NCBI GenBank assembly: GCA_029978905.1
Contig: JAPOIM010000009.1
Coordinates: 244-64,243 of the forward strand
Reading direction: 5' to 3'
DNA: 64,000 bases
From: Planctomycetota bacterium
Lineage (GTDB): Bacteria > Planctomycetota > Planctomycetia > Pirellulales > UBA1268
Shown: one piece after another, positions 18,602 to 58,383 of the stretch
Layout of the letters: each line of letters begins with the position of its first letter
How positions within the stretch are numbered: the first letter of the stretch is position 1
Made by a program: the position numbers and the translations under genes
Notes under the pieces: model-generated
What the model saw: the letters and a program-made list of their open reading frames with translations, nothing else
The model's database searches: none
Told to the model about the DNA's origin: nothing

Positions 18602-18784
18602 GGGCAAAAGCCCCCCCTGAAGGTGACGATGCCGCAGCATCGGCGAGAGGCACGATACCGGGCCAGTGCGTCGTCCGCAACGTTCGGCCCTCGCGTCCCG
18701 CGTGTGCCTGGGCGGCTTTGGAGATGAAAATCCGGGGTGGGGCGTCTTTGACGAGAAGAGGGTAGACTTTAGCGGGTGGGGAAA

Positions 18785-18794
18785 CTGTCGACAG
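18785..18794. promoter_or_regulatory. Palindrome CTGTCGACAG, candidate operator
   Basis: A perfect 10-base palindrome in the 264-base divergent gap between the ABC auxiliary gene (-) and the 1721-residue protein gene (+). It ends 71 bases before the ATG at 18866. Its core TGTCGACA recurs at 34025-34040, the other divergent PSD1 promoter region. Nothing else in 18602-18865 stands out except a small hairpin at 18627-18642. Confidence 0.4.
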
Positions 18795-18865
18795 GCCGAC
18801 GACTCAGGTTGGGTTGGCGACCTTTCCACGCAAGACACGAGATATGTTGCAACGAGAGGTGCCGC

Positions 18866-39304: not shown

Positions 39305-42300
39305 ATCATCACGAGGAAGCAACGATGCGGTCTGGACGGAGCGACCTGATCACGACGGCAGCGATCATCATGATGCTGCTGTCTGCGGCGATGGAGGTGC
39401 GTGCGGAAGAGGCGGCCGCAGCGCTTGTGGCCCGCTACTGCCATGGCTGCCATGCCGGGGATGTGGTCGAAGGAGATGTGGATCTCACGGGAGCTGGGTC
39501 GCCCGACGCGATGCGGCAGGCGCTGCGGCACTGGCAGCGAGCGGCGGACGTGGTGTCGGATGGGCAGATGCCGCCTCAAGATGCTGATCAGCCCAGTGAA
39601 GCGGAGCGAACCCAACTGGCAACGTGGCTGCGTGATTTCCTGCGGGGTGAGGCTGAGGCCCATGCCGGCGATCCTGGGCGGGTGGTGCTGCGGCGTCTCA
39701 ACAACGCGGAATACACCTACACAGTGCGCGAACTCACCGGCGTAGACTCGCTCGACCCTGCCCGCGAGTTTCCAGCAGAGGGGGGAGCAGGCGAAGGCTT
39801 CACCAACACGGGGGCGTCGCTCGTGATGTCACCTTCGATGGTGGTGAAGTATCTCGATGCGGGCAAAGACATTGCTGAGCATCTGGTTCTGCTGCCTGAT
39901 GGGATGCGATTTTCCGCCGGGCAGTCGCGGCGCGACTTCACCGACGAACTGCTCGAAGAGATTCGCGACTTCTACCGACGGTACACGTCGCCGCTGTCTG
40001 ACACAGCGGTGCAAGCACAGACCACCGTGGAGCAGGGGATCACCCTCGACATGGGCCGCGAGGGATTTCTGCCGCTCGCCGCCACCTTTCAGGCGGCGCG
40101 CGAACTTGCGAAGGGCGAGCCCACGCCTGATCGCGTGGCGGACATTGCCGCCGCGCACGGCATCTCGCCGAAGTATCTCAGCACGGTGGCCACGGCGATG
40201 GCAGCCCAACCGTTGACCTCGTCGCCGCCGGCAGGCGCCGACGGTTCGCTGATCGTCGACCGGCTCCGCGATCTCTGGGAGCAGCAGTCGGTGCTGCCGG
40301 AATCGGTGCTCGTGGCTGAGGTGGAGGCGTGGCAGCGGGTGCTCTGGAAGTTCAACAAGGTTGGGCAGATCGGCCGGCACCTCGGCCGTGAAGATGGCCC
40401 TGCTTCTTGGATGGAGGCCGTGTCTCCGCTGGTGGCTCGCAAAGAGTTCCGGCTCCCGATGCCCTCGGCTGATGCGGATGGCTGGATCACGCTCCATCTT
40501 GCTGCGAGTTCGGCTGGCGACGGAGCCGCAGACGACCTCGTGATGTTTGAGCGGCCGCGTCTCGTCGCCCCGGGGCGTGGCGATCTTCCCCTGTCGGCAG
40601 TCGAAGATCTCGCCGATGCCGTGGGGGAATGGCGGACGATGCTCTCCGAGCAAACCGTTGGCTGTCTTGAGGCCGCTGCCGAACTGCTCGACCACACACG
40701 GCATGCCACCGCGGAGACTGCGCCGACGATCGAGGAACTGGCGACGACGCATGGCGTCGATCCTCGACTGCTGCAGGGGTGGCTGCAGGCGCTTGGGGTC
40801 GAGGCGCGGGGAGTCGTGAGCCTCGGTGAGCCGATCGTTGGTCGGGCGGAAGGTGTCGAGGCATGGCCCTTCATTACCGGGTGGACTGGCGCGGATGCCC
40901 TCTCGGTGCTGGCCAACTCGTCTGATCAGGAGGTGCAGATTCCCGGCACAATGCGACCGCACTCCGTCGGTGTCCATCCCGCCCCCAACCGGCGTGTGGT
41001 GGTGTCGTGGGTGAGCCCTAGGGCGTGCGATGTTGGTGTGGAGGGGAGCGTGCAGCGGGCGCACATCGGGTGCGGCAATGGCGTTGCCTGGAGTGTGCAG
41101 ATTCGTCGCAAGGGCACGCGGCAGGTGGTTGCCGAAGGGCTCGCGGATGGTGGTGATGCCCGGGCCTTTGCGCCGCCGGAGCAGTTGCCACTCCAGGCCG
41201 GCGATGCAGTGAGCCTCGTGATCGATCCCCGCGATGGCAACCATTCGTGCGACATGACGGCCATCGCCTTGACGGTCACGTCGGCGGATGGTGTGTGGGA
41301 CCTGGCGGCCGACGTGTCGGACAACATCCTCGCTGGCAACCCGCATGCCGACGGCCAGGGGCACGCAGGGGTGTGGCACTTCGCGAGCGAACCGGTGGGG
41401 GAGGAAGCGCAACCGTTGATCCCCTCTGGCTCGCTGGCGGCTCGCTGGCTCGCGAGCGGAACGCGCGAAGACAAGCAGGAGATCGCAGCGCAGCTCGCGG
41501 CCGTGCTCTCGTCTGAGGCCGACGGGCCGCCGGCTGGATCTCCCGACGCAGCCTTGCGGACGCTCTTGCGGGCTCCGTCTGGGCCGATCCTTGCGCCCTC
41601 GATGGCGGCCTGGCTGGCGGAGCGGTCTGTGGTTGCGGCCGAGGAGAATCTCCGCCTGCAGGCACCAAGTGTCCGCACGTTTCGGATGCCTGCCGAACTG
41701 GTGGCGGGGTGCGAACTCGTCACGGCCGCGGTGATTGCGGAGGAGGCTGGTGAGCAGGCGACCGTGCAGGTGTCGGTGGGCGGTGGGGATTTCAATCCCA
41801 ATGTCAGCCTGCAGCCTGATCTGCCCGTCGTGGCTCGCGAGGGGACGGCGGGTTGGGATCGCATGAACCGTTCATTTGATGCGTTTCGCGACCTGTTTCC
41901 GCAAGCCTTGTGTTACGTGCGGATCGTGCCGGTCGACGAGGTGGTGACCCTTAACGTGCTCTACCGAGAAGACGAGCACCTGCGACGACTGATGCTCACC
42001 GAGCAGGAGTCGGCAGATTTGGAACGCCTCTGGGACCAGCTGCTCTTTGTGAGTGCCGAGCCACTGAAGTTGGAAGCGTCGCTCGAGCAGATTACGGAGT
42101 TCGCCACCCAAGATCGACCAGACCTCGCGATACCTTTTCAGAAAATGAAGCCAGCCGTTGAGGCACGGGCGGAGGCGTATCGCGAGCGGTTGGTGGCGAG
42201 TCGTCCTGCACAGCTGGAGGCCTTGATCGGCTTCGCTGAGCAGGCGTTTCGGCGACCACTCCATGGGGACGAGGCAGAAGACCTCCGCAACTTGCACGCG

Positions 42301-43473
42301 ATGCTGCTCGGCGAGGGGCTTCCGCACGAGGAGGCGATGGCGATGCTCGTGGCTCGCGTGCTCGTGTCCCCTGACTTTCTCTACAAACTCGAAGTGCCTC
42401 CTGTGGGTGAGTTGCCGCAGCCAGTTGACGGGTATGAGTTAGCGACGCGGTTGAGTTACTTCCTGTGGTCGTCACCGCCGGATGCAGAGCTGCTCCATGC
42501 GGCTGCCGATGGCAGCCTGCTTACGGAGGCTGTGCTGAGGGCCCAGGCGGAACGCATGCTGCGGGATCCGCGTGCGAGGCGGCTGGCGATCGAGTTTGGC
42601 ACGCACTGGCTCCATGTCTCAGGCTTCGCCCGCGATGCGGAAAAGAATGAAGCACTGTTTCCGGAGTTTGCGGCACTGCGAGGGGCGATCGAAGAGGAAA
42701 CCGTGCTCTTCCTCACCGACTTCTTCCAAGAAGACCGCTCGATCCTGAGCCTCTTGGATGCCGACCACACCTTCCTCAACCCAGAACTTGCGGCGCATTA
42801 CGGTATCGCAGGTGTGGAAGGGGAGGGCTGGCGGCGGATCGACGGCGTTCGGTCGCACGGACGTGGTGGGGTGCTGACACTCGCCTCCACACTGGCGACG
42901 CAGGCAGGAGCCTCGCGGACGAGCCCGATTCTGCGCGGCAACTGGCTGTTTGAAACGATCCTTGGCGAGAAACTCCCCAAGCCGCCAAAGGACGTGCCAC
43001 TCTTGGCCGAGACGGTGCCGGCGGGCCTGACCGAGCGGCAGCTGATTGAGCTGCACTCAGAAAACGCGTCGTGCGCTCGTTGCCACCAAAAGATTGATCC
43101 GCTTGGCTTCGCGCTCGAAGAGTTTGACGCGGTGGGTCGTTTCCGAGCGGCGGATGCTGCCGGGCAGCCGATCGATGCCGCCACGAAGCTCCCCGATGGC
43201 ACAACGATTGATGGGGTCGAGGGCCTTCGAGCCTGGCTCCTCTCGACGCGGCGTGAGGACTTCACACGGCAGTTCTGTCGCAAGCTCCTCGGCTATGCGC
43301 TCGGGCGTGCGGTGCAGCTCTCCGATGAGCCACTCCTCGACACGATGCTCACCGAACTCGCCGCCAACGACGATCGCATCGGGCATGCGATCGAGATGGT
43401 GGTGATGAGCCCGCAGTTTCGCATGACGCGAGGACGCGACTATCACGACCCGCTCGCTGCAGATGATCATTAA
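39301..43473 (+). CDS. Large DUF1587/DUF1592/DUF1588/DUF1585 cytochrome-like protein
   Basis: 1390 aa; starts in an ATGA overlap. Signal peptide (LITTAAIIMMLLSAAMEVRA). PSCyt-type site CHGCH (47-51). DUF1587: VVLRRLNNAEYTYTVRELTGVD. A middle region of about 700 residues follows; it is longer than in the usual members and contains two copies of a helical motif (VADIAAAHGISPKYLS near 278 and IEELATTHGVDPRLLQ near 475). DUF1592: GYELATRLSYFLWSSPPDAELL. DUF1588: GVLTLASTLATQAGASRTSPILRG. A further CxxCH, CARCHQKIDPLGFALE. DUF1585: TRQFCRKLLGYALGRAVQLSDEPLLD. Likely periplasmic. The pairing with DUF1552 parallels PSD1 with DUF1501. Confidence 0.92.
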   Translation: MNHHEEATMRSGRSDLITTAAIIMMLLSAAMEVRAEEAAAALVARYCHGCHAGDVVEGDVDLTGAGSPDAMRQALRHWQRAADVVSDGQMPPQDADQPSEAERTQLATWLRDFLRGEAEAHAGDPGRVVLRRLNNAEYTYTVRELTGVDSLDPAREFPAEGGAGEGFTNTGASLVMSPSMVVKYLDAGKDIAEHLVLLPDGMRFSAGQSRRDFTDELLEEIRDFYRRYTSPLSDTAVQAQTTVEQGITLDMGREGFLPLAATFQAARELAKGEPTPDRVADIAAAHGISPKYLSTVATAMAAQPLTSSPPAGADGSLIVDRLRDLWEQQSVLPESVLVAEVEAWQRVLWKFNKVGQIGRHLGREDGPASWMEAVSPLVARKEFRLPMPSADADGWITLHLAASSAGDGAADDLVMFERPRLVAPGRGDLPLSAVEDLADAVGEWRTMLSEQTVGCLEAAAELLDHTRHATAETAPTIEELATTHGVDPRLLQGWLQALGVEARGVVSLGEPIVGRAEGVEAWPFITGWTGADALSVLANSSDQEVQIPGTMRPHSVGVHPAPNRRVVVSWVSPRACDVGVEGSVQRAHIGCGNGVAWSVQIRRKGTRQVVAEGLADGGDARAFAPPEQLPLQAGDAVSLVIDPRDGNHSCDMTAIALTVTSADGVWDLAADVSDNILAGNPHADGQGHAGVWHFASEPVGEEAQPLIPSGSLAARWLASGTREDKQEIAAQLAAVLSSEADGPPAGSPDAALRTLLRAPSGPILAPSMAAWLAERSVVAAEENLRLQAPSVRTFRMPAELVAGCELVTAAVIAEEAGEQATVQVSVGGGDFNPNVSLQPDLPVVAREGTAGWDRMNRSFDAFRDLFPQALCYVRIVPVDEVVTLNVLYREDEHLRRLMLTEQESADLERLWDQLLFVSAEPLKLEASLEQITEFATQDRPDLAIPFQKMKPAVEARAEAYRERLVASRPAQLEALIGFAEQAFRRPLHGDEAEDLRNLHAMLLGEGLPHEEAMAMLVARVLVSPDFLYKLEVPPVGELPQPVDGYELATRLSYFLWSSPPDAELLHAAADGSLLTEAVLRAQAERMLRDPRARRLAIEFGTHWLHVSGFARDAEKNEALFPEFAALRGAIEEETVLFLTDFFQEDRSILSLLDADHTFLNPELAAHYGIAGVEGEGWRRIDGVRSHGRGGVLTLASTLATQAGASRTSPILRGNWLFETILGEKLPKPPKDVPLLAETVPAGLTERQLIELHSENASCARCHQKIDPLGFALEEFDAVGRFRAADAAGQPIDAATKLPDGTTIDGVEGLRAWLLSTRREDFTRQFCRKLLGYALGRAVQLSDEPLLDTMLTELAANDDRIGHAIEMVVMSPQFRMTRGRDYHDPLAADDH

Positions 43474-43524
43474 ACAGAGCCGGACACGTCCGCTCGACAG
43501 GGGTATCCTTCAAGGGAGTCTTTC

Positions 43525-44886
43525 ATGAATACACCGCCGTTGGCATGCACTGCCGGTCTCCGCGCTTCGCGTCGCGCCATCCTGCGAGGGATGGGGGTGT
43601 CGATGACGCTGCCGTGGCTTGAGTCTTTCCGGCCCCGCGGTGTGGTTGCGGCCGAGGAGTTTGCGTCTGCATCTGGGCCACCAACGCGCCTTGCCGTGCT
43701 GTTTGCGGGCAATGGATTCCATTCGCAAGAGTGGTGGGCCGAGGGTACAGGCTCCGAGATGAAGCTCGGCCGCGTGCTGCAGCCGCTGCATGATTTTCGT
43801 GAGCAGTTTCTTCTGGTGAAGGGGCTCTATCACGAAGAGGCGCGGAAGGGAAACATCCACAGCTCGCAGACGGGCAACCTGCTGTCGGGAGCTCCGCTGG
43901 CCAGTGGTGGTGAGATCCGCTCTGGTACGAGCTTTGATCAGGTGATCGCCCAGTCACACCGCCACGCGACGAAGGTGCCGAGCCTGGTGTTGGGGTGCGA
44001 GCGGGCAAATCCGTCGGTGCACAAGAACTATTCGATGCTCTACAGCTCCCATATTTCATGGAGCTCACCCACGACGCCGACTCCGCTCGAGCTCTATCCC
44101 GCCCTCGCCTTTGATCGGCTCTTCAAAGATGACGTGGAACGGGGAGATGCCAGCGTGCTCGATGCGGTGATCGAGGATGCAGCCGATCTTCGCAGGCGGA
44201 TTAATGTGGCCGATCGCCGCAAGCTCGATGAGTATCTCGACAGCGTGCGAGATGTGGAATCGCGGATCGAAGGCGCAGGCAAGCGTGGGGAACTGCAAGG
44301 CTGGCGGCCGCCGTTGGCGGCCCCAGATCGCCCCAGGCCTCCAGATGGGGTGCCGCAAGACATCGCCGAGCATATGCGGCTGATGTGCGACATCCTGGTT
44401 TTAGCCTTCCAGACCGACACCTCGCGCGTCGTGACGTTGAAGCTCAATAACGATCACTCGGCTTTGCGGTTTCCCAACCTCACGCGCGTCGACAATCCCA
44501 CGCAGGGGATCGACTACATGATCCATCACCTGCTTTCGCATTCGGACGGTGAAGACTGGCTGAAAGTGAATCAGTTCTTCGTCGAGCAGATGGCCTACAT
44601 CGCGCGGCGGTTGGCGGCGACGCAGGAAGGGGACGGATCGGTCCTCGACAACACGGTCGTGATGCTCTGTTCGAGCATGATGGCGGGAGCCCGACACGAC
44701 AACGACCAGTTGCCTGTGGCGATGGTTGGTGGCGGGGGCGGGCGGCTGGCGGGTGGTCGGGTGCTCGACTACGCCGGCGCCGAGCAGCGGCAGATGTGCC
44801 GCCTCTTCCTGTCGTTGTTGGATGTGATGGGCGTGCCGCTGCAGGCCTATGGCGACGCAACCATGCCGTTGACAGAGATCGCGTAG
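43525..44886 (+). CDS. DUF1552 protein, exported
   Basis: 453 aa; AAGGGAG precedes the ATG. The leader SRRAILRGMGVSMTLPWLESF is the standard DUF1552 start and is RR-type. Core features: LAVLFAGNGFHSQEWWAEGTG, YHEEARKGNIHSSQTGNLLSG, IHHLLSHSDGEDWLKVNQ, and ALRFPNLTRVDN. The family occurs beside DUF1592/DUF1588/DUF1585 proteins, as here, 51 bases downstream of that gene. Like DUF1501 it appears to be a secreted partner of a cytochrome-like protein. The enzymatic function is unknown. The following 115 bases are the leader of the next unit. Confidence 0.92.
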   Translation: MNTPPLACTAGLRASRRAILRGMGVSMTLPWLESFRPRGVVAAEEFASASGPPTRLAVLFAGNGFHSQEWWAEGTGSEMKLGRVLQPLHDFREQFLLVKGLYHEEARKGNIHSSQTGNLLSGAPLASGGEIRSGTSFDQVIAQSHRHATKVPSLVLGCERANPSVHKNYSMLYSSHISWSSPTTPTPLELYPALAFDRLFKDDVERGDASVLDAVIEDAADLRRRINVADRRKLDEYLDSVRDVESRIEGAGKRGELQGWRPPLAAPDRPRPPDGVPQDIAEHMRLMCDILVLAFQTDTSRVVTLKLNNDHSALRFPNLTRVDNPTQGIDYMIHHLLSHSDGEDWLKVNQFFVEQMAYIARRLAATQEGDGSVLDNTVVMLCSSMMAGARHDNDQLPVAMVGGGGGRLAGGRVLDYAGAEQRQMCRLFLSLLDVMGVPLQAYGDATMPLTEIA

Positions 44887-45001
44887 CTGGCTGCCCGGTT
44901 TCTGTCAGTTTGTGACGGTCTGTTAAACTTTTGTGATCGGGGAAGCATACTCGAGTCGTGCAGCGAAGGCCCTGCGGGGCCGTCGTCGAGGAGGAGCAGC
45001 G

Positions 45002-47494
45002 ATGCGGATGCGTTTTAGAACTCTCGCAGCGGTATGTCTTGCGTGCGCGGGGTCGTTTGGGGTCGCCGTCGCCGAGGATGGCGTCGTTCCGAGCCTCACG
45101 GTCGACGTGTCGACGGGGCAGCCGGAGCCGGGGCCGCTGCGTCTTGTCGGAAGTCGTGATCGTCGGCAGCTCATCGCCACGGCCCTCTCGGCCGGCGTGC
45201 CTGATGTCGATGTGACGGCCGCGGTCGCCTGGCGTGTCGAACCCGCGACGCTCGCTACCGTGGAGCCCGGGGGAATGCTTGTTCCCTTGGCGGATGGTGA
45301 AGGGCAGGTCGTGGCCGCCTTTGAAGGGGCGGGCGAGGTGGCTGTGCCGCTGATTGTGGAGCGGATCGGAAATGATCCGCCGATCGACTTCATCAGCCAG
45401 ATCGTGCCGGTCTTTACCAAGTACGGCTGCAACGGTGGCGGCTGCCACGGCAAGAGTGGTGGCCAGAATGGCTTTCGTCTGTCGCTGCTCGGCTTTGAGC
45501 CCGCCGAGGATCACGAACACCTGGTGAAGGAAGCGCGCGGGCGACGCATTTCTCTGGTGGCGCCTGAGACGAGTCTGCTCCTTGAGAAGGCGGCGGCCGA
45601 GGTCCCACACGGTGGCGGCAAACTGATCGAAACAGGGTCGCCTTCCTACGAACTGATCGCTGAATGGATCCGCGAGGGCGCAAGGCCGAGTGGGGCGGAG
45701 CCGCCGCGTGTGTCGCGGATTGAGGTCTTTCCAACCGAACGCACGCTCTTTGCAGGGCAGCGGCAGCAGCTGCGGGTGATGGCCTTCTTTGATGATGGTC
45801 GAATCGAAGACGTCACCCGCATGGCGCAGTATGAGGTCAATGCTCCAGATCTCGCTGAAGTGGCCGTCGATGGGTTGGTGACGGCAACCGATCAAGGGGA
45901 TGGTCCGGCTCGCTGTGGAACCGTGGCGGTGATGGTCCGCTACCAGAGCCACGTGGGCGTGTTCCGCGGCACGACGCCACTGAGCACGGATCCCGGGCTG
46001 ATCCCTTCTCCCGAATCCTTTGCTCGGAACTTTGTTGACGAGCAGGTGCTTGCTCATCTGCAGAAGCTGGGTCTGCCACCGTCGCCGGTCTGCGACGACG
46101 CAACGTTCCTGCGGCGGGTGACGATCGACATCGCGGGTCGGCTGCCCACGTCTGAAGAAACGGCGGCCTTCCTGGCGAACACCGATGGGGATAAACGCGA
46201 TCGACTGATCGATCAGCTGGTGGACTCCGAAGACTACGCCCACAACTTTGCCACGAAGTGGTCGGCCATCCTGCGGAACAAGCGCGCGGGAGGGGAGATC
46301 CATCGCCACGGAAGCTATGCCTTCTACGATTGGATTCGGCACAGCATCGCGGAGAACAAGCCCTACAGCGAGTTTGTCCGCGACATCATCACAGCGACGG
46401 GGGAGGCGAATGCCAATCCTGCGGTGATTTGGTACCGCCAGGTGTCGGACATCAACCAACAGGTTGAAGACGCCTCGCAGCTGTTTCTCGGCCAGCGTTT
46501 GCAGTGTGCGCGATGCCACCATCACCCGTTTGAGAAGTGGGGCACCGACGACTACTTCGAACTCGCCGCCTTCTTCTCGCGCGTGGGCCGTAAGAAGGGC
46601 CTGCAGCCAGGTGAGGATCGGCTCTTCCACAATCGCGGGGTGGCTTCTGCGAACGGTCCGAAGGGAAGCCATAAGGCTGCGGTACTCGGTGCCGAGCCCG
46701 GTGACATGCCGATCGATTCCGATCCGCGACAAGAGCTAGCCGATTGGATGGTGGCTGCAGACAACCCCTTCTTCGCCCGTTCGCTCGTGAATCGCTACTG
46801 GAAGCACTTCTTTGCCGTGGGGCTTGTCGAACCGGAAGACGATATGCGGGTCACCAATCCCGCAACCAATCCGGAACTGCTCGACGCCTTGGCGACCGCG
46901 TTTACCGAGCATGGCTACGACATGAAGTGGTTGGTGCGGACGATCTGTCGCTCCACGACGTATCAACTCTCGGCCGTTCCCAACGACTACAACTCCCAAG
47001 ACCGGCAGAGCTACTCCCGGTTCTTCGCGCGTCGCCTTCCCGCAGAGATCGCTCTGGATGCGATCGACGTGCTTACCGGGAGCCAGACCAGCTTTGCGGG
47101 AACACTGCCGGGCACTCGTGCTGTGGAGTTGCCCGACCCGAACTTCGACAACTACTTCCTCACGGTGTTTGGTCGGCCGAATGCCGACAGTGCCTGCGAG
47201 TGCGAGCGTGGGTCTGAGGCCAACCTCGCCCAGAGTCTGCACCTGATCAACTCTGCCGACATCTTGGGCAAACTCTCTGGCAGCCGTGCCAGCACGTTCG
47301 CGGAGGATGCGGCAACACCGACGGCGAGCAAGATCGATCAGGTGTATCTGGTGGCCCTTTCGCGTCATCCCTCTCCGGAAGAAACGGCAGAGATTGAGGC
47401 GTACCTCGCAGCGCGGGCGGATCGCTCCAAGGAAGCTTGGGAGGATGTCGTCTGGTCGCTGCTGAACACCAAAGAGTTTCTCTTCAACCATTGA
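45002..47494 (+). CDS. Big2-like + DUF1549/DUF1553 (PSD1) protein
   Basis: 830 aa from ATG 45002 with GAGGAGGAG upstream. Signal peptide to about residue 24. An Ig-like or Big2-like domain comes first (LRLVGSRDRRQLIATA), then a cytochrome-like site CNGGGCHGKSGGQNGFRLSL, a second Big2-like domain (SRIEVFPTERTLFAGQRQQL), DUF1549 (FLRRVTIDIAGRLPTSEE; CARCHHHPFEKWGTDDYF) and DUF1553 (FARSLVNRYWKHFFAVGLVEPEDDM; DSACECERGSE). It ends VVWSLLNTKEFLFNH, the normal DUF1553 ending. Order and motifs match the C-terminal half of the 1721-residue protein at 18866. The gene 12 bases downstream encodes a PPC-domain protein. Confidence 0.93.
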   Translation: MRMRFRTLAAVCLACAGSFGVAVAEDGVVPSLTVDVSTGQPEPGPLRLVGSRDRRQLIATALSAGVPDVDVTAAVAWRVEPATLATVEPGGMLVPLADGEGQVVAAFEGAGEVAVPLIVERIGNDPPIDFISQIVPVFTKYGCNGGGCHGKSGGQNGFRLSLLGFEPAEDHEHLVKEARGRRISLVAPETSLLLEKAAAEVPHGGGKLIETGSPSYELIAEWIREGARPSGAEPPRVSRIEVFPTERTLFAGQRQQLRVMAFFDDGRIEDVTRMAQYEVNAPDLAEVAVDGLVTATDQGDGPARCGTVAVMVRYQSHVGVFRGTTPLSTDPGLIPSPESFARNFVDEQVLAHLQKLGLPPSPVCDDATFLRRVTIDIAGRLPTSEETAAFLANTDGDKRDRLIDQLVDSEDYAHNFATKWSAILRNKRAGGEIHRHGSYAFYDWIRHSIAENKPYSEFVRDIITATGEANANPAVIWYRQVSDINQQVEDASQLFLGQRLQCARCHHHPFEKWGTDDYFELAAFFSRVGRKKGLQPGEDRLFHNRGVASANGPKGSHKAAVLGAEPGDMPIDSDPRQELADWMVAADNPFFARSLVNRYWKHFFAVGLVEPEDDMRVTNPATNPELLDALATAFTEHGYDMKWLVRTICRSTTYQLSAVPNDYNSQDRQSYSRFFARRLPAEIALDAIDVLTGSQTSFAGTLPGTRAVELPDPNFDNYFLTVFGRPNADSACECERGSEANLAQSLHLINSADILGKLSGSRASTFAEDAATPTASKIDQVYLVALSRHPSPEETAEIEAYLAARADRSKEAWEDVVWSLLNTKEFLFNH

Positions 47495-47506: not shown

Positions 47507-50443
47507 ATGACCACCTCGTATTCGTGGAGGGCGGCCCGTGCCCAGTGGCGTCGCGGCGTAGTGAGATCGGTTTCTCGCCTGTCCGTGCTCCTTGTCGTGT
47601 TGGCGGTGGCGCTGGCCGCCTGGCTGCCCATCGCGGTCGCGGAACTGCCTGAGCCGATCCTGACCGCGATCGCGCCGCCTGGTGGCAGGCAAGGGGAGAG
47701 CGTCGAGGTTGTGCTCGCAGGCGAAGACCTCGACGAGGTGCACGCCATGGTGTTCTCGCATCCGGGGATCTCGGCCGCTCCGGTCATGGCCGACGCGACG
47801 GAGTTCGATCCGGAGCCGAGGCCCTTGGCGGGCAAGATGACCGTGGCGATCGGGGCTGACGTGCCTCCCGGAATCTATGAAGCCTCGGCGATCGGCCGCT
47901 TTGGCGTGAGCAGCCCCAGGCGATTTGTGGTGGGACGCTCGCAAGAGTTTCGAAAGACAGGGCCGATCGAGGCGGCCGAGAAGGCGCTGCCACTGCCGCT
48001 CGATGCGGTGGTCAACGCGGCGGCCGATGCCAATGCGGCGGACCACTATGCAATAGAGTGTCAGGCCGGGCAGCGGCTGCACCTCGAACTGTGGGCCAAC
48101 CGGCTCGACTCGCGCATCGATCCGCTTCTGGAGGTGCGAGGGCCTGACGGTCGGTTGGTTGAAGTCGCCGCCGACGTGATCCATGGCGATCCGGTCATTG
48201 ACCTGACGACCGTGGCCTCCGGCCGGCATGTGGTGCGGGTGCACGATCGATACGCCCGTGGCGGTGGGGAGTTTTTCTATCGGCTTGGTGTCTCAACGGG
48301 GCCTGTCGTGGTGGCCGTGTTTCCGGCCGCAGCAGAGCCGGGGCAGCCAGCAAAGATCACGCTGATGGGGCGTGGCCTGGGCGAAGGGGCCGTGCCCATG
48401 CCTGGCGACGACGGACGAGGACTCGAGCAAAAGTCGATCGACGTCGATCCTAGTCAGATCGGCTTCGACGATCCTGCAACCCCGCCTGGTCGGTTGCTCG
48501 CACCGCGCGATGCGGCTGCCGATCTGGTGCCGCTTCGCGGGGGGCTGTTTGACGAGCTCCCGAGCCCACCCACCGTGTTGCAGGTCGACCTCGATATCGT
48601 GCCAGAGGTGGAGCCCAACGATGGCGAGGATCAGCCACAGCTTGTGCCACGGCCGGCGGCGATTGCGGGGCGTTTTCACCCACGCGGTGACCGCGACTGC
48701 TTTGCGTTCGATGCCGCAGCCGGGGAGGTGATCACGCTCGATCTCTTTTCACGGAGGTTGGGGAGTGAGAGCGATGCGGCGATCAAAGTGGAGCGGTTGT
48801 CGTTTGATGACAACGGTGGAGTGACTGCCCACGAGATCTCCTTTGCTGACGACGGCCCGCAGGAGTTTCAGGGGGCGATGGTCGATCAGCCCACACTCGA
48901 TCCTCAGATCACCTTCACCGCGGACACGACCGCAACCTATCGAGTGACGGTAAAGGATTTGGCGGTGGACTCGGTGGCCAGCCCGGCTGCGAGCTACGTG
49001 CTCTCCATCAGGCCCCCGGCACCAGACTTTGAACTGCTCGCCCTGGTGGCCCGACCCGATCGAGGCGATGCCAGCAAACTGTATGCCTGCGCTCCGACGC
49101 TCGCGGCTGGCGGGACGGTCGCGCTTGATCTGCTGCTCGTGCGGCAGGACGGCTTCGCTGGAGACGTGACGATCACCGCAGAGAACCTGCCGGCTGGCGT
49201 CACGGCGGTGCCGGTGGTGATCGCGGGCGGGGCTCGTCGTGGGGTGGTGGTGTTGCAGGCTGCCGACGATGCCCAACCTCTCGAGCAAGAGATTCGCATC
49301 GTTGGTCGAGCGATGGTCGCTGGCAGCGAGGTGGCCAAGGTGGCACGGTCCGCCACGCTTCGCTGGAAGGTCAACAACGCCAACGAACCGCAGTTGGTTC
49401 GGCAGACGGAAGGGGTGCGTGTGGCGGTGACGGCCGATGCGGCTCCGGTCACCCTGCGGCCGAAGGAGTCGACGACTTTTGAGACGTCGCGCGGTGGCAA
49501 ACTTTCGATCCCCTTCGACGTGATTCGACGGCCTGGCGTGAAAGGTCCGTTGGCGTTGACGCCGATCGCGTACCCCGCCGAGATGAAACTGCCCGACGCC
49601 CTGAAGGTGCCGGAGGTGAAGTTTGAAGAACCGCAACTCGCCGAAGGGGAAACGTCGCCGCCGCCCGCGAGCGGGGAAGTGGCCGTGGATGTCGAACCAG
49701 GTGTGGCCCCCGGGGTGTACACCGTCACGCTTCAGGGGGTGGCGAAGTACGCCTTCTCGCGAAACCCTCAAGCCGCCGAGCGGGCCAAGGCCGATCTCGA
49801 ACGAGTGACGGCGGCCACCCAGCAGCGGGCGGAAGCGGTTGAGGCATCGAAGACGGCGCTGGCGACTGCGGAGAAGGTGGTCGCCGACGCGCAGGCGGCT
49901 GGCAACGAGCCTCCTCCCGAGATGCTCGCCACACGTGATTCGGCTCAAAAAGCGGTGGCCGACGCGGAGGCGGCCTTCAAGGCTGCTGAGGAGGAGCGGG
50001 GGCGCCGTGAAAAGGTGGCGACGGATGCGGCCGCGGCTTCGGCTGCGAAAGACATCGATGTGCCTGTGTTGCTGCCACCACTCACGGTGGTCGTCGCCGA
50101 TGCTCCTGTGTCGATGACGACAAGCCCGGATGGGGTGGCCGTCGCCGCGGGCACCGCCGGGGAAATGAAGATTGCCGTGGAACGGAAGTACGGGTTTGCC
50201 GGGCCCGTCACGATCGAGGCGGTCGCCGCCTCGCCAGTGGAAGGCCTTGGTCTGGCGGCCGCGACAGTTGCTGCAGAAGCCACAGAGGGAGTTGTGGCGA
50301 TCACCACCACGGAGGCCACGCCTCCCGGAAGCCACACGGTCACACTCAAGGGGAAGGTGAGTTTCTTCGACAGGGAAGTCGCGTTTGAGCGGCAGGTGCC
50401 GCTGATTGTTTCTGCCCGAGTCCAGGAGTCGCCGCAACCATGA
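47507..50443 (+). CDS. Exported PPC-domain (pre-peptidase C-terminal) protein with an inserted coiled coil
   Basis: 978 aa. Signal peptide (LSVLLVVLAVALAAWLPIAVA). An IPT/Ig-like opening (PEPILTAIAPPGGRQGESVEV) is typical of planctomycete PPC proteins. PPC-like domain 1: NAADHYAIECQAGQRLHLELWANRL. PPC-like domain 2: DRDCFAFDAAAGEVITLDLFSRRLG. Further beta domains follow. About residues 754-848 are a charged Ala/Glu/Lys coiled coil (QAAERAKADLERVTAATQQR; VADAEAAFKAAEEERGRREK) set inside an otherwise beta-rich stretch, between YTVTLQGVAKYAFS and DIDVPVLLPPLTVVV. Probably secreted or surface-bound and non-enzymatic. It overlaps the next gene by four bases. Confidence 0.88.
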   Translation: MTTSYSWRAARAQWRRGVVRSVSRLSVLLVVLAVALAAWLPIAVAELPEPILTAIAPPGGRQGESVEVVLAGEDLDEVHAMVFSHPGISAAPVMADATEFDPEPRPLAGKMTVAIGADVPPGIYEASAIGRFGVSSPRRFVVGRSQEFRKTGPIEAAEKALPLPLDAVVNAAADANAADHYAIECQAGQRLHLELWANRLDSRIDPLLEVRGPDGRLVEVAADVIHGDPVIDLTTVASGRHVVRVHDRYARGGGEFFYRLGVSTGPVVVAVFPAAAEPGQPAKITLMGRGLGEGAVPMPGDDGRGLEQKSIDVDPSQIGFDDPATPPGRLLAPRDAAADLVPLRGGLFDELPSPPTVLQVDLDIVPEVEPNDGEDQPQLVPRPAAIAGRFHPRGDRDCFAFDAAAGEVITLDLFSRRLGSESDAAIKVERLSFDDNGGVTAHEISFADDGPQEFQGAMVDQPTLDPQITFTADTTATYRVTVKDLAVDSVASPAASYVLSIRPPAPDFELLALVARPDRGDASKLYACAPTLAAGGTVALDLLLVRQDGFAGDVTITAENLPAGVTAVPVVIAGGARRGVVVLQAADDAQPLEQEIRIVGRAMVAGSEVAKVARSATLRWKVNNANEPQLVRQTEGVRVAVTADAAPVTLRPKESTTFETSRGGKLSIPFDVIRRPGVKGPLALTPIAYPAEMKLPDALKVPEVKFEEPQLAEGETSPPPASGEVAVDVEPGVAPGVYTVTLQGVAKYAFSRNPQAAERAKADLERVTAATQQRAEAVEASKTALATAEKVVADAQAAGNEPPPEMLATRDSAQKAVADAEAAFKAAEEERGRREKVATDAAAASAAKDIDVPVLLPPLTVVVADAPVSMTTSPDGVAVAAGTAGEMKIAVERKYGFAGPVTIEAVAASPVEGLGLAAATVAAEATEGVVAITTTEATPPGSHTVTLKGKVSFFDREVAFERQVPLIVSARVQESPQP

Positions 50444-53400
50444 CCTGCATCGTGATGACCGCTCACTTTCGGCGCACGCCCCTCTTTGCCCGTCTTTCCT
50501 TCACCGCCTGTGCCACGCTCACTGCCGTCGTGGTCGCCTCGTTCGTGGTTCCTCACCCCGTACAGGCTCAGGAAGAGGGGCTGCCTGTGGCGGTCATTGA
50601 GCGGGATGCTTCGGTTCGCTACCAGGACGAGATTGTGCCGATGCTGTCGGCCAACTGCACCGCGTGCCACAACGAAAAGGTGACCGAAGGTGGGCTCTCG
50701 ATGGATTCGCTCGAGCGGATTGTCGCTGGAGGTGATTCTGGGCCGGGCGTCGTGGCAGGCAACGCGTCGGAAAGCCTGCTCTTTCTCAGGGCCGCCCACC
50801 GTCTCGACGATGCGATGCCGCCTGAAGACAACGGCGTTGGTGCGGTGAACCTGTCGCCCGAGCAGCTTGGGCTCCTCCAACGGTGGATCGACGAAGGGGC
50901 TCAGGCTGGGCCGTTAGCGATGCGGCCCGTCGACTGGAAGCCGCTTCCGCCCGGGGTAGGCGGGGTGTTGGCGGTGGCGCTCTCCGGTGATGGGCGGGTG
51001 ACGGCCGCGGCACGCGGTGGGCGGGTGACGCTCTACGACACGCGGTCCGGGGGCAGGCTTACGTCGGGGGCGGGAGAGGCTGCTGCCACCTCGAGTCTGG
51101 TCGACCCCACGCTCGTGACGGCAAGTGACGAGGGGAGTGGGCTGGCTCACGCGGATGTGGTGACCGCGATGGCTTTTTCGCCCGTGGACGATCTTTTGGC
51201 GACGGGCTCGTTTCGCACGATCAAACTCTGGGCTCGGAATGCGGTGGGGAAACTTGCCGACATCCCAGGGTCTGGAGGCGGGGTGTTGCTGGGCGTGGCC
51301 GACAGCCCCAAGGGAATCGCCGCGATTGGCCTCGCAGATGGCCGGGTCGCCATCGCCGACGTTGCCGCACCGAACGTCGCCGAGACGCTTCGCATCCTTG
51401 GCACCCCTGGCCCAGCGGCGGTGGCGGGAGTGCTGTCAGCGGATGCGTCCACGCTCTACGTTGCCGCACAAGACAACTCCCTGACGGCCTACCGCCTTGA
51501 GGATGGTGCGATCATTGGTCGCCTGCTGCGGCCACTGGCGATCAGCGCCCTCGTCCTCGCGCACGGTGAGAGCCAGTTGGTCAGTTCCGAAGCCGACGGC
51601 TCGCTGCGCTGCTGGAAACTCCCCCTGCCTGCTGTCGAGGAAACCGCGGCGCCGGCGGAACTGGTGCGCGAGATTGCTGGAGCAGCCTTCCCGGTGACTG
51701 CGATGCGGGAAGTGCCAGGTTTCTCTGGCCAGGTGCTTGCGGGGTGTGCGGATGGGGTGGTGCGGCTTTGGAACCTCGCCGACGGGGGACTGGTCCGCGA
51801 GTTTCCCCACGGTGGGGCTGTCGCGTCGTTGGCGGTCAACCACGATGGCACGCGGTTGGCCACGGTGGGGGGCGTGCCTGGCGTGAAGGTCTGGAGTCTC
51901 GCTGATGCCGCGCTCATCACGCACACCCAAGGCGATCACGAACTCGCGGATCGCTTGGCTCGCCTCGATGCCGACCTGCGGGTGCTCGGCCAGGACGGCG
52001 ACTATGCCAAGGCTCAGGTGACGGCGGCCGAAGAGGCGAAGACGAAGGCAGCCGAAGAACTGAAGCAGATGCAGGAAAAGCTCGCGGCGGCGGAGAAAGA
52101 CGCCACGGAAAAAGGAGAGACAGCTGCTGCGGCCACGGCGGCTCGCGAAGAAGCCGATCGCGTGGCGGCTGGTGCCGTGGCCGCCGTGCCATTGGCTGAA
52201 GCCGCTGTTGAGGCGGCCAAGATGGTTGTGGCAGAAGCGACCGCAGCCGTGGAGGCTGCCGCTGCCAGCCGGGCAAGTTTTGTGAAGGCCACGGAAGGTG
52301 CTGCGGATGCGGCCGAGGCCTTAAAGCCGCTCGATGCGGCAGTGGAGGCGGCGGCTGCAGCCAAAGCGGCAGCCGAGGCTGCGGTGGCAGCAGCCGAAGG
52401 TCAGGTGCCGCGGTCGAAGGCTCGCGTCGATGAGACCGCGAAGATGGTCGAGGAGCAGAAGAAGGCCGAGACGGCGGCCGTCGACGCCTCCAAGGCTTCC
52501 GAAACCGCGCTCACATCGGCTCGACGCGACCACGATTTCGCTACCGCACAGGTGGCGCGGGCCGACGAGGCGTTGCCGCAGCGACAGGCTGAACTGACCG
52601 CGCTTGAGGCCAAGCGAACAGACGTCGAAGCGGAACGGAACGGACTCGCCGAGGGACAACCGGCAGCGATGCATCCTTTTGTGAGCGTGAGCTTTCGACG
52701 GGATGGAAGTCGCGTGCTGTGCCTTGACCCGCACGGGAGCGTGCTTGAGTGCGGCGGGCTCGATGGCCTTCCGCGGCGGCGGATGTCGGTGGCCGCGGGT
52801 GCCGTCACTCTCGCGGCCACGGCTGATCACCGGCTCCTGGTGTGTGGTGGGCCCGATTTTGCTTCGGTGTGGGATGCAAGTGATCGGTGGACGCTGCTGC
52901 GCACCATAGGTGGTGAGCAGGTTCCGCCAGCGATCGACGATGACCCAACGGGCCCGCCGGTCGATGCGGTGCTCGCGCTTGCCTTTTCTCCCGACGGAAC
53001 GTTTCTGGCCTCGGGGAGTGGCCGCGCGAGTCGTGGTGGCGAGATCAAACTCTGGAACGTGGCCGACGGCACGCTTGTGCGGAGCCTTGTTCAGCCCCAC
53101 TCCGACACCGTGGTCTCGCTCGCCTTTTCGCGAGACGGAGCCTCGCTCGCTTCCGGAGGGACCGATCGGCTCGCCAAGATGCATGACGTGGCCAGTGGAG
53201 CCACGGTGAAGAGCTTTGAAGGCCACACGGGCCACGTCCTGGGAGTTGCCTGGCAGGCCAATGGTCGACGGCTGGTGACTGCCGGAGCCGACAATGTGCT
53301 CAAAGTCTGGGACGTGACGACGGGTGAACAGCAGCGAACGATCGGCGGCCTCGGACGCGAGGCGACGGGTGTGCGGTTTCTCGGCGAAGGAGAGGAAATC

Positions 53401-53613
53401 GCAGCCACCTCAGGCGATGCCACCGTCCGCGTCTTCAACGCGGCATCCGGCGGCGAGGTCCGGCGGCTGCAGGGCGCGGGCGACTTCGTGCAGTCCATCG
53501 CGGTTGCTGGTTCGACGCTCGCAGTCGGAAGCCAAGACGGCCGCATGCTGATCTGGGCGGTCGAGAACCCGCAGCCCATGCACACCCTCGAACCGTCGCC
53601 GGCTCGCGACTGA
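50440..53613 (+). CDS. PSCyt1 + WD40 protein split by a long coiled coil
   Basis: 1057 aa; ATGA overlap with the PPC gene. Signal peptide ending near VPHPVQA. PSCyt1 site CTACH (73-77) followed by GGLSMDSLERIVAGGDSGPGVV. WD40 blades 1 (about 165-490): AMAFSPVDDLLATGSFRTIKLW and SLAVNHDGTRLATVGG. A coiled coil from about 497 to 740, almost entirely Ala, Glu, Lys (EEAKTKAAEELKQMQEKLAAAEKD). WD40 blades 2 (about 745-1050): LAFSPDGTFLASGSG, LAFSRDGASLASGGTDRLAKMHD, and GVAWQANGRRLVTAGADNVLKVWD. The N-terminal half resembles the N-terminal half of the 1721-residue protein. Likely periplasmic. Confidence 0.9.
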   Translation: MTCIVMTAHFRRTPLFARLSFTACATLTAVVVASFVVPHPVQAQEEGLPVAVIERDASVRYQDEIVPMLSANCTACHNEKVTEGGLSMDSLERIVAGGDSGPGVVAGNASESLLFLRAAHRLDDAMPPEDNGVGAVNLSPEQLGLLQRWIDEGAQAGPLAMRPVDWKPLPPGVGGVLAVALSGDGRVTAAARGGRVTLYDTRSGGRLTSGAGEAAATSSLVDPTLVTASDEGSGLAHADVVTAMAFSPVDDLLATGSFRTIKLWARNAVGKLADIPGSGGGVLLGVADSPKGIAAIGLADGRVAIADVAAPNVAETLRILGTPGPAAVAGVLSADASTLYVAAQDNSLTAYRLEDGAIIGRLLRPLAISALVLAHGESQLVSSEADGSLRCWKLPLPAVEETAAPAELVREIAGAAFPVTAMREVPGFSGQVLAGCADGVVRLWNLADGGLVREFPHGGAVASLAVNHDGTRLATVGGVPGVKVWSLADAALITHTQGDHELADRLARLDADLRVLGQDGDYAKAQVTAAEEAKTKAAEELKQMQEKLAAAEKDATEKGETAAAATAAREEADRVAAGAVAAVPLAEAAVEAAKMVVAEATAAVEAAAASRASFVKATEGAADAAEALKPLDAAVEAAAAAKAAAEAAVAAAEGQVPRSKARVDETAKMVEEQKKAETAAVDASKASETALTSARRDHDFATAQVARADEALPQRQAELTALEAKRTDVEAERNGLAEGQPAAMHPFVSVSFRRDGSRVLCLDPHGSVLECGGLDGLPRRRMSVAAGAVTLAATADHRLLVCGGPDFASVWDASDRWTLLRTIGGEQVPPAIDDDPTGPPVDAVLALAFSPDGTFLASGSGRASRGGEIKLWNVADGTLVRSLVQPHSDTVVSLAFSRDGASLASGGTDRLAKMHDVASGATVKSFEGHTGHVLGVAWQANGRRLVTAGADNVLKVWDVTTGEQQRTIGGLGREATGVRFLGEGEEIAATSGDATVRVFNAASGGEVRRLQGAGDFVQSIAVAGSTLAVGSQDGRMLIWAVENPQPMHTLEPSPARD

Positions 53614-53671: not shown

Positions 53672-55018
53672 CTAGATCAGTTCCGAGATGGGCTGATGTT
53701 CGACGAGGTACTGAGGCCGCCCGGTCATATCAATGATCGTCGTGTTGGCGGTGGACAGGCCCAGTGCGTGGTAGAGGGTCGCGGTGATTTCTTGCATGTG
53801 CACCGGGCGATCGGTGGCGTGTTCACCAAGCCGGTTGGTAGCACCGATGACCTGGCCGGTTCGGAGCCCGCCGCCGGCCAACAGGGCGGTGCTCACCTGA
53901 GGCCAGTGGTCGCGGCCGGCTTGCGGGTTGATCTTGGGCGTCCGCCCAAACTCTCCCCAGACCACAATGGTGACGTCGTCGATCATGCCGCGTTCGGTCA
54001 AGTCGTCGATCAGCGCTGAGAGACACTGATCCAGTTTGCCGCCGTGGTCGCGGACGAGGTCAAAGTTCTTGCCGTGGCTGTCCCAACGCCCGTAGCTCAA
54101 ACTGACGACGCGAACGCCAGCCTCGATCAGCCGACGGGCGATCAGCAAGTGGTCGTTGCAGGTCGGGGCACCGTCGTACTGATACTGATACGGCTTCCCG
54201 TCTCCGTAGGCCGCGCGGACTTTCGGGTCTTCCTGCTCAAGATCGAGGGCGTCGAGAAGCCGGCTTCCGGTGAGCACATCAAAGGCTCGCTGGCCGAAGC
54301 TGTCCATGCCGTCGAGGATGCCTGAGGCATCGACATCCCGGCGAAGCGTGTCGAGACCGGCGAGGAGTTGCTGCCGGTCGCGAAGCCGGTCCAGCGACAT
54401 CGATCGCAGGGTCATGTTTTCGAGGTCGCGTCCTTCCGGCTTAAACGGAGCAAAGGCTGGGCCGAGGAAGCCCGCGGTGCCCGAGTCCGACCAGGGGCGG
54501 TGGCTCGTCGGGGCGGCGAGGCCGACGAATGGCGGCACGGAGGGGTCGACGGGGCCCGCCAAGCGCGACACAACCGCGCCCATCGAGGGGCGACCACCAA
54601 TCGATCGCAGGCTGCTCTCAGACCACCCCGTCATGCACTGAAAAGAGGCGTGGGCACCTTCGCAGCCAACCACCGACCGGATGACGGCACAGCGATCCAT
54701 CCGCTGCGCGAGTTGCGGAAACACTTCACAGATTTCGATGCCGGGCACGTTGGTGCCGATTGGGCGAAACTCGCCGCGAATCTCACTCGGGGCGTCGGGC
54801 TTGAGGTCCCAGAGGTCCTGATGCGGCGGGCCACCACCCAGGAAAATGTTGATCAGTGCCTTGTGACGATGGGCCGCAGGAGAAGACGACGCCTCCGCCT
54901 GCCGCATGACTTGAGCCAGGGAAAGCCCCCCACAGCCAAACGAGAGTCCACCAATCGTCAGGAAGTCACGGCGACTGCCCCTGCAGAGCCGCTGCTTTCC
55001 TCCAAAAAATGAGAGCAT
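53672..55018 (-). CDS. DUF1501 protein, exported (Tat-like leader)
   Basis: 448 aa. The leader GSRRDFLTIGGLSFGCGGLSLA has the classic S-R-R-x-F-L Tat pattern. Core: LINIFLGGGPPHQDLWDLKP, VVWGEFGRTPKINPQAGRDHWPQVSTALLAGGG. The ending GRPQYLVEHQPISELI is nearer to the DUF1501 at 24138 than to those at 29614 and 37862. It faces the PSCyt1-WD40 gene tail to tail with a 58-base gap, so it is not in that operon, although it is the nearest DUF1501 partner for the 45002-53613 set. The gap holds only an imperfect GC-rich inverted repeat. Confidence 0.92.
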   Translation of the reverse strand: MLSFFGGKQRLCRGSRRDFLTIGGLSFGCGGLSLAQVMRQAEASSSPAAHRHKALINIFLGGGPPHQDLWDLKPDAPSEIRGEFRPIGTNVPGIEICEVFPQLAQRMDRCAVIRSVVGCEGAHASFQCMTGWSESSLRSIGGRPSMGAVVSRLAGPVDPSVPPFVGLAAPTSHRPWSDSGTAGFLGPAFAPFKPEGRDLENMTLRSMSLDRLRDRQQLLAGLDTLRRDVDASGILDGMDSFGQRAFDVLTGSRLLDALDLEQEDPKVRAAYGDGKPYQYQYDGAPTCNDHLLIARRLIEAGVRVVSLSYGRWDSHGKNFDLVRDHGGKLDQCLSALIDDLTERGMIDDVTIVVWGEFGRTPKINPQAGRDHWPQVSTALLAGGGLRTGQVIGATNRLGEHATDRPVHMQEITATLYHALGLSTANTTIIDMTGRPQYLVEHQPISELI

Positions 55019-55732: not shown

Positions 55733-55896
55733 CACGGCAGTTCCTCGGTGATCCTTCGGGGGGAAACCGTGCGAGAGTTTAGCAGACGGCGGGGTTCGTC
55801 CACTGCCGCCAGCAACGCGAATCGCGTCTGCCGACTCGGGTGTTCGTTGACCCTTGGTCGAAAGTCGTGCTACTGTCGAATTCAAGGAGATCGCGG

Positions 55897-58383
55897 ATGA
55901 CACGGTTCGTGCCGTCGGTATTTTCGGCGGATGATCGGCACGTCTTGGTGCTGCTGGCGGGGGACGACACAACCCAGAGTGTGGCGCCCCCATCCGCACG
56001 TCCGCCGTCGCGCCCCATGCACGACGTCACGCCGCTGCCTCACGGTCCGGCGGACCGCGACGTGGAAGCCACCGTGATTTCTCAGCTTCCGACTGGGGAT
56101 GGCCAGCTCAGCGACGCGAGCGAGCAGGACTCCGAGCAGGGAACTCGCCGCCGGCCGCATACCGCGGTCGCCGATGTGGGACGGGCCCTCGAGGGCAAGC
56201 GGCTCGGTGTCTACGAACTGCAGGAGTTTGTTGGCGGCGGTGGAATGGGCGCGGTCTTTCGCGGTCGTGATACGACGCTCGATCGGACCGTGGCGGTCAA
56301 GGTGCTTTTTCAACACCGCACCGACGATGCCGATCTTCTACGGCGTTTTAAAAATGAGGCCCAGTCGGCCGCGCGACTCGACCATGAAAACATCGGCCGC
56401 GTCTACGCGGTCGGCAGTGAAGGGGGCTGGCACTACATCGTCTTTGAGTTCATCGAGGGGGTGAACCTCCGTGATCTCGTCAACGATCGAGGGCCCTTTG
56501 ATGTCGCCCGCACGATCACCATCACGTCGCAGCTGGCCGATGCGCTCGCCCATGCGGAAACCCGCAATGTCGTGCATCGCGATATCAAGCCGTCAAATGT
56601 GATCATCACGCCGACGGGGAAGGCACGCTTGGTCGACATGGGCCTCGCCCGGCTGCATCAGATGACGGGCGACCGTGATCTCACCGTGAGTGGAATGACG
56701 CTGGGCACCTTCGACTACATCTCGCCGGAGCAGGCGCGTGATCCAAGGCTTGCCGACGTGCGCAGCGACCTCTACTCGCTCGGGTGCACGGCCTACTTCA
56801 TGCTGATTGGCCGCCCGCCCTTTGCCGACGGCACGATGGTGCAGAAACTGTTGCAGCATCAACAGCAGCAGGCCGTGCCGGTGGATCGGTTGCGCCCCGA
56901 TATTCCCCGCGAAGTCGCCCTCGTGATTGGTCGGCTGATGGAGAAGGATCCGGCCGATCGCTACCAGCATCCGGCGGAACTGGTGGAGGCGCTCTCGCGG
57001 ATTGCCGAAGACCGCGGCATTGAGTTGCCCACGACAGCCGCCGCCGTGGTGCGACGGCCAAAGAAGCGCCAGTTTCGGATCGCGGATCACCTGCCTTGGC
57101 TTGTGCCCACGCTGGGCTTTGCGGCAATCGTGACGGCGCTCTGGCTCTCGACAGGTGAGCGTGGGCGTGAAAATCGAGTGGCGAGTGCCACCGATCCAGC
57201 CGGCCTCCGCACCGACAACCCGTCGGAAATTGAGGGTGGCGTGGTCATGCACCGTGTGGTCGATGCGCCCAACGCGGAGGCGGAAGCCTGGACGGAGCAT
57301 GTGTCTCTGGCCGACGCGGTGGCCGCGGCTGACGATGGAGACGTGATCGAACTTGCGTTTTCGGAGGTTCGCGACGAGCCGCCCATCCAGGTTGAGGGCA
57401 AGAAACTCACCATTCGAGCGGCGCAGGGAACGCGTCCTGAGGTGCGATTTAGTGGCTTTGCCACCGAGTCGTTGGCACGTGAGCGAGCGGGTTTTGTGCT
57501 CGATGCCTCGCAGGTGACACTTCAGGATGTGTCGATCACCCTGGCTGTTTCCTCGGAGTCGCTTGAACCGGCAGCGCGGCTGTTCTTGCTCAGGGAAGAA
57601 AGCCACCTGGTCCTTGAGAGGAGCCGACTGGGCATCGAAGGGACATCGGAAGGCTCCGTCGAATCCCGTCGGCCCCGGTGTGTTGAGGTGGTGGCGTCTC
57701 CTGCTTCCGCCGTTGATGCGGCACGCATGCCGCGAACTGCGGAGGCCGAAGAGGCGACCGCCCCATCCACGCGGATCGAACTTGTGGAAACGACGGTTGA
57801 GGGAGACATGACGTTTCTGGAAGTCACGGGTGCGGGACGCGTCGACCTTCTTTGGACTGGCGGCTCGTTAAACACGGGTGGCCGGTGCATCGTGGTGGAA
57901 GGTGCTGGCCGCGACGTGGAAGAAGGCACCGTGCTTACCGTCACCACGAGGGAGGGACTGTTTGCCTGTCGCGAAGGGTTTGCCTGCCTGCTCGATTCTC
58001 CTGCGAGGCCAACGGAGCCGCGTCTCGAGGTGACGGCCACGTCTTCACGCTTCCTGACACCGGAAGGGGTGCCGCTGATCGAGCAGTCGGGCATCGAAGA
58101 CCCGGAGGTGTACCGGGGTCGTGTCCGCTGGATCGACGCCGGAAGCCGGTATGAAGGCAGCCCTGTGTTTCGCCGCATTGATGGGGCGGCTGAACGGGTG
58201 GAAATCGACTTTGCTTCGCTCGCCCAGTCGATGCAGTTCCTGCCTCAGATCGAGGCCTGGCCTGAAGCTGAGATCGGCGCCGGCGACAAACAACGTTCGG
58301 TGCCCGCGGCAGGAGAAACGCTGCAGGAAAACGCCGCTCCGCCGACTGCTGTGCCTTCAGGCGGCGTCCCGTCGCGGTCGTAG
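55897..58383 (+). CDS. Serine/threonine protein kinase, membrane-anchored
   Basis: 828 aa from ATG 55897 (AAGGAG seven bases upstream; track start 55840). An unstructured N-terminal segment precedes the kinase domain, about residues 105-365: glycine loop VGGGGMGAVFRG, lysine in VAVKVLF (K135), catalytic HRDIKPSN (H227-D229), DMG instead of DFG (D247-G249), and the SPEQ activation-segment end. One transmembrane helix lies at about residues 396-415 (LVPTLGFAAIVTALWLS). The C-terminal about 400 residues are exported, with a beta-helix-like segment (GKKLTIRAAQGTRPEVRFSGF; QVTLQDVSITLA). It may sense an envelope ligand. DMG is frequent in planctomycete kinases by general knowledge, so it need not mean loss of activity. 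Confidence 0.93.
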   Translation: MTRFVPSVFSADDRHVLVLLAGDDTTQSVAPPSARPPSRPMHDVTPLPHGPADRDVEATVISQLPTGDGQLSDASEQDSEQGTRRRPHTAVADVGRALEGKRLGVYELQEFVGGGGMGAVFRGRDTTLDRTVAVKVLFQHRTDDADLLRRFKNEAQSAARLDHENIGRVYAVGSEGGWHYIVFEFIEGVNLRDLVNDRGPFDVARTITITSQLADALAHAETRNVVHRDIKPSNVIITPTGKARLVDMGLARLHQMTGDRDLTVSGMTLGTFDYISPEQARDPRLADVRSDLYSLGCTAYFMLIGRPPFADGTMVQKLLQHQQQQAVPVDRLRPDIPREVALVIGRLMEKDPADRYQHPAELVEALSRIAEDRGIELPTTAAAVVRRPKKRQFRIADHLPWLVPTLGFAAIVTALWLSTGERGRENRVASATDPAGLRTDNPSEIEGGVVMHRVVDAPNAEAEAWTEHVSLADAVAAADDGDVIELAFSEVRDEPPIQVEGKKLTIRAAQGTRPEVRFSGFATESLARERAGFVLDASQVTLQDVSITLAVSSESLEPAARLFLLREESHLVLERSRLGIEGTSEGSVESRRPRCVEVVASPASAVDAARMPRTAEAEEATAPSTRIELVETTVEGDMTFLEVTGAGRVDLLWTGGSLNTGGRCIVVEGAGRDVEEGTVLTVTTREGLFACREGFACLLDSPARPTEPRLEVTATSSRFLTPEGVPLIEQSGIEDPEVYRGRVRWIDAGSRYEGSPVFRRIDGAAERVEIDFASLAQSMQFLPQIEAWPEAEIGAGDKQRSVPAAGETLQENAAPPTAVPSGGVPSRS

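Follow-up and report, generated by a model that had tools for sequence, protein, structure and literature searches.

Background

In a survey of Verrucomicrobia genomes, PSCyt domains were reported together with WD40 and further domains in exported proteins of unknown function, and a carbohydrate role of PSCyt proteins was proposed from context (PMC5615132). The planctomycete-specific PSCyt1, PSCyt2 and PSD1 families have the same domains and combinations as the locus analyzed here, including PSCyt with WD40; the word 'coiled' is absent from the main text of that survey, and we noticed neither a PPC-WD pair nor a paired change of arm length in it (PMC5615132). A survey of prokaryotic WD40 proteins found DUF1501 genes among the WD40 neighbours in Planctomycetes, and its main text gave no match to 'coiled' (PMC5587647). 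The families that host the insertions are known but uncharacterised, and our literature search, with most subscription journals outside its reach, found no paper describing these coil insertions.

The closest parallel for a constrained arm length is the SMC arm. As in the proteins described here, its chain leaves a folded domain and returns to it as an intramolecular antiparallel coiled coil, and its lengths are multimodal and functionally periodic (PMC5344682). Arm length in SMC proteins varies in steps of about 100 residues, close to a single superhelical turn (PMC5344682), whereas the steps found here are 21 residues per arm; unlike SMC proteins, the PPC and cytochrome-WD40 (WD) proteins have no ATPase head or hinge and are exported. 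Periplasmic adaptors (membrane fusion proteins) also resemble them in having a long periplasmic α-helical hairpin within a beta-rich protein; the coil of EmrA measures 127 angstrom (PMC4158417). Pfam gave no match to periplasmic adaptor domains in the PPC and WD proteins. Adaptor hairpins dock by a conserved tip, whereas the tips of the PPC and WD coils are not specially conserved. The tandem WD40 proteins 2ymu, Utp21, Pwp2 and AIP1 have two linked propellers like the WD protein, and to our knowledge none of them carries an exported cytochrome domain or has its propellers separated by a hairpin of about 240 residues.

Two Adjacent Genes Encode Proteins With Predicted Helical Hairpins

The window (the whole stretch of 64,000 nucleotides that was analyzed) contains two open reading frames whose stop and start codons overlap in ATGA. 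The sequence-only reading had placed a long coil in each of them, and both frames and both coils were found where it put them.

44933-47494, + strand: DUF1549/DUF1553 (PSCyt2/PSD1) gene, directly upstream of the PPC gene (Pfam)
47507-50443, + strand: PPC protein gene, 978 aa (open reading frame)
49766-49897, + strand: outgoing helix of the PPC coil, residues 754-797 (AlphaFold2)
49898-49915, + strand: turn of the PPC coil, residues 798-803, holding prolines (sequence and AlphaFold2)
49916-50038, + strand: returning helix of the PPC coil, residues 804-844 (AlphaFold2)
50440-53613, + strand: cytochrome-WD40 (WD) gene, 1057 aa (open reading frame)
50656-50829, + strand: PSCyt1 cytochrome c domain (PF07635), residues 73-130, haem motif CTACH (E 1.2e-13, 51.9 bits against a cut-off of 22)
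50971-51927, + strand: first WD40 propeller, residues 178-496 (Pfam match and AlphaFold2)
51937-52290, + strand: outgoing helix of the WD coil, residues 500-617 (AlphaFold2)
52291-52308, + strand: predicted turn of the WD coil, residues 618-623, lowest confidence, about 61-68 (AlphaFold2)
52309-52653, + strand: returning helix of the WD coil, residues 624-738 (AlphaFold2)
52684-53589, + strand: second WD40 propeller, residues 749-1050 (Pfam match and AlphaFold2)

The PPC protein has a signal-like N-terminus. Its AlphaFold2 model, built on 49 related sequences, reached a mean pLDDT of 88.0 and a pTM of 0.80, and showed a chain of beta-sandwich domains with a helical hairpin in the penultimate one. 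The match to PF04151 (PPC) scored 22.8-24.0 bits, below the Pfam cut-off of 25.9. The 91-residue coil is set between strands 742-750 and 848-855, both of one beta-sandwich domain, and its prolines lie at the turn only.

The model of the WD protein, built on 53 related sequences, gave a mean pLDDT of 87.7 and a pTM of 0.77. Both cysteines and the histidine of the CxxCH motif were invariant among 53 sequences; by these matches the protein is a member of the PSCyt1 planctomycete cytochrome c family, with haem binding and electron carriage as putative functions. WD40 matches flank the 239-residue coil, and each half of the model has 27-28 strands, forming a tandem of two complete seven-bladed propellers. 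Because the flanking halves are two such propellers, the WD coil extends the linker that joins two domains and does not interrupt a single fold, and armless homologs have a 13-residue linker at this place. The confidence of the hairpin was above 90 at the base and fell to about 61 near the turn. The models thus strongly support for both coils an antiparallel hairpin of two long helices and a short turn, as the sequence-only reading had expected of them. That reading had also allowed prolines only at turns, which is correct for the PPC coil and fails for the WD coil, whose arms hold four prolines (584, 630, 657 and 713) outside the predicted turn. The same genome has another cytochrome-WD40 gene with a coil (G000:C163; L002, L003), in a 1569-residue open frame at a contig end.

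The genes around the pair were also read. The region 39301-44886 before it encodes a DUF1587/1595/1592/1588/1585 protein with a cytochrome domain, followed by a DUF1552 (HXXSHH) protein whose N-terminus is Tat-like, a second planctomycete-specific module. A putative DUF1501 protein, taken as the DUF1501 reference when neighbouring genes were searched, is encoded at 53672-55018 (- strand), convergent with the WD gene, and a serine/threonine protein kinase-like frame with a long C-terminal extension lies at 55840-58383.

Across planctomycete families and in Verrucomicrobia, each of the two coils keeps its position. Their hydrophobic periodicity was 3.45-3.5 residues, with a power of 4.5-4.8 compared with about 1.45 for shuffled sequences (about three times the shuffled maximum). 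Conservation was highest at the bases, low on the outer arms and low to modest at the tips; low conservation on outer arms and high conservation at bases are as expected of spacers. In NCBIfam the coils matched SMC_prok_B and polynuc_phos far below the cut-off; these matches track coil composition and were rejected. The turns of relatives in both coils are often like D-P/A-x-N-x-x-L.

Arm Lengths Change in Matched 21-Residue Steps

We compared coil lengths among relatives, leaving the extra residues free to split anywhere between the two arms. Coil length differences of 42 residues split exactly into 21 + 21 in 12 of 17 comparisons for the WD coil and 17 of 19 for the PPC coil, counts that are not independent because the comparisons share ancestry. 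When all length differences were taken, the result was much noisier, with a split near the middle in 31% and 37% of cases compared with 21% for shuffled coils; the clean matched-arm split is confined to the 42-residue steps. The alignments showed the extra residues as one 21-residue insert per arm at mirrored heights, and by counting on the alignment both WD inserts lie about 59 residues from the base.

The lengths themselves recur. Within 1 residue of 176, 218, 260 or 302 were 44 of the 70 WD coils, and a minimum of 5 shifts from one of these classes to another is required on the tree. The PPC coil lengths recur at 144, 186, 228 and 270, a clustering that is weak by itself (p about 0.04). Heptad register alone would permit 14-residue steps as well, and the 42-residue step dominates nonetheless. 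A matched 21 + 21 change in two different insertions is strong evidence that both coils do fold as antiparallel hairpins.

The Pair Is Conserved, Once Fused, and Usually Has Both Coils or Neither

PPC relatives were found in 355 of 398 scanned genomes of the class. Gene order was read at about 200 loci, and in most of those checked a cytochrome-WD40 gene came immediately downstream of the PPC gene; a number of WD genes with a coil, several of which are verrucomicrobial, had no recognisable PPC neighbour. Among 110 divergent PPC-WD pairs clustered at 75% identity, both coils were present in 71 and neither in 35; three pairs, all from one family, had the WD coil only, and the WD gene of the single apparent PPC-only pair is cut by a contig end. 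The co-occurrence of the coils in other genomes, which the sequence-only reading had suggested as a check, was therefore seen, with 4 of the 110 pairs discordant and few independent changes. On a tree of the PPC N-terminal region each coil trait changes 3 times, together in 2-3 of the 3 and never oppositely, which is too few for significance (sign test, p 0.25-0.5).

In one metagenome assembly (L129, 672-6098; same record as L193), PPC and WD form a single 1809-residue open reading frame in which both coils are kept, the cytochrome domain directly follows the PPC beta domain, and exactly the WD signal peptide is lost. This clean fusion and the gene adjacency support a physical unit of PPC and WD. 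Together with the signal-like N-termini and the CxxCH cytochrome domain, the fusion and the near-universal adjacency also support the earlier proposal that the two proteins are partners outside the cytoplasm. At a second locus outside the 110-pair count (L289, 1855-6879), a PPC protein with a short coil and a coil-less cytochrome-WD40 protein share one frame; this is a possible, ambiguous fusion, in which a signal-like stretch still stands at the junction. The further long frames and loci L286, L287, L288, L290 and L291 gave no other fusion. Strict co-occurrence of the coils is ruled out by the WD-coil-only family and by L289.

A PSCyt2/PSD1 gene lay within 6 kb of 60 of the 71 two-coil pairs compared with 6 of the 35 coil-less pairs, in a search that took the window's own protein as reference and may miss distant relatives.

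The Arms Are Probably Spacers in an Exported Assembly

The gene pairing, predicted hairpins, paired length changes and co-occurrence are computed results; the physical complex, the strut role of the arms and the redox function are inferred. It is very probable that PPC and WD function as a single exported unit whose arms are rigid and constrained in length. In the more specific form that we favour, which we hold to be reasonably probable, they would be subunits of a single exported assembly with a redox or binding role, in which the arms serve as spacers or struts and the pair is held mainly by its folded parts. Coil-less pairs occur in many genomes, and hence the arms are not essential to the pair.

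An alternative, which we think less likely than not, takes the coils to be independent spacers that came to be fixed in shared lineages, so that the pair cooperates while the roles of its arms are unrelated. The small number of independent changes, the differing lengths and insertion sites, and discordant cases in both directions agree with it, whereas the concordance of the presence/absence changes that are seen and the same step of 21 residues per arm in both families speak against it.

The sequence-only reading had proposed assembly through the coils. Here the complex would be held by contact between the two hairpins, packed either side by side or tip to tip, as might be suggested by the adjacent, once-fused genes and by coils that are usually present or absent together. 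The comparisons of partner coils did not bear this out. Their lengths showed no match (rho -0.25, p 0.06), and their net charges were positively correlated (rho 0.75), ruling out charge complementarity. Conservation along both coils showed conserved bases and no conserved docking tip. In addition, one family keeps the WD coil without the PPC coil, the possibly fused L289 pair combines a short PPC coil with a coil-less WD protein, and pairs without arms are still found side by side. We consider a complex held by coil contact unlikely.

It is highly improbable that the coils do not pair as hairpins and are Ala-rich low-complexity or single-helix stretches: arms with a strong bias to Ala, Glu and Lys and with little sequence conservation would suit this reading, and AlphaFold2 can be biased toward helices in such sequence, but the 3.5-residue periodicity is gone after shuffling, and unpaired arms would have no reason to change length in a matched way.

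In the spacer assembly that we prefer, each subunit would project a rigid antiparallel coiled-coil hairpin from its folded domains, with arms of about 6 nm (PPC) and 17 nm (WD) at 1.5 angstrom per residue, and the two proteins would be joined mainly through their folded parts. The assembly would be found in planctomycetes and Verrucomicrobia and would usually be encoded beside the PSCyt2/PSD1 multihaem protein. Most likely, the arms would fix how far apart parts of the assembly lie, or how far they lie from a third component, which may be the PSCyt2 protein, the cell wall or a membrane. More tentatively, and with a small chance of being right, the arms may be molecular rulers of an exported cytochrome assembly, with selection permitting growth in both subunits mostly by 21 residues per helix at a time (about 3 nm), which would keep the position and facing of whatever is attached at the far end fixed.

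The Third Coil in the Giant Protein

The sequence-only reading had counted a third coil of the same kind in a giant protein elsewhere in the window.

18776-24031, + strand: giant protein, PSCyt1-WD40-Big_2-PSCyt2-PSD1 (Pfam and sequence)

Paired helical inserts are present at about residues 1381-1440 and 1681-1722, and they flank a domain in the PSD1 C-terminus that reads as discoidin-like, for which Pfam gave no significant match. Relatives of this C-terminus (L267-L282) show three nested states, namely no insert, the discoidin-like domain alone, and the domain with paired helical segments, which would form a series of stepwise insertions. The third coil looks like a paired stalk under a folded domain, unlike the two free hairpins, and the giant gene is not beside the PPC-WD pair.

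Significance

Planctomycete-specific cytochrome proteins reach dozens of copies in a genome (PSCyt1 is found at 52 places in this one), and our literature search found no paper assigning them a tested function. The conserved, once-fused exported pair with rigid arms is a concrete complex to purify, and the paired 21-residue steps offer a simple genetic test of whether arm length is important, as has been shown for SMC proteins.
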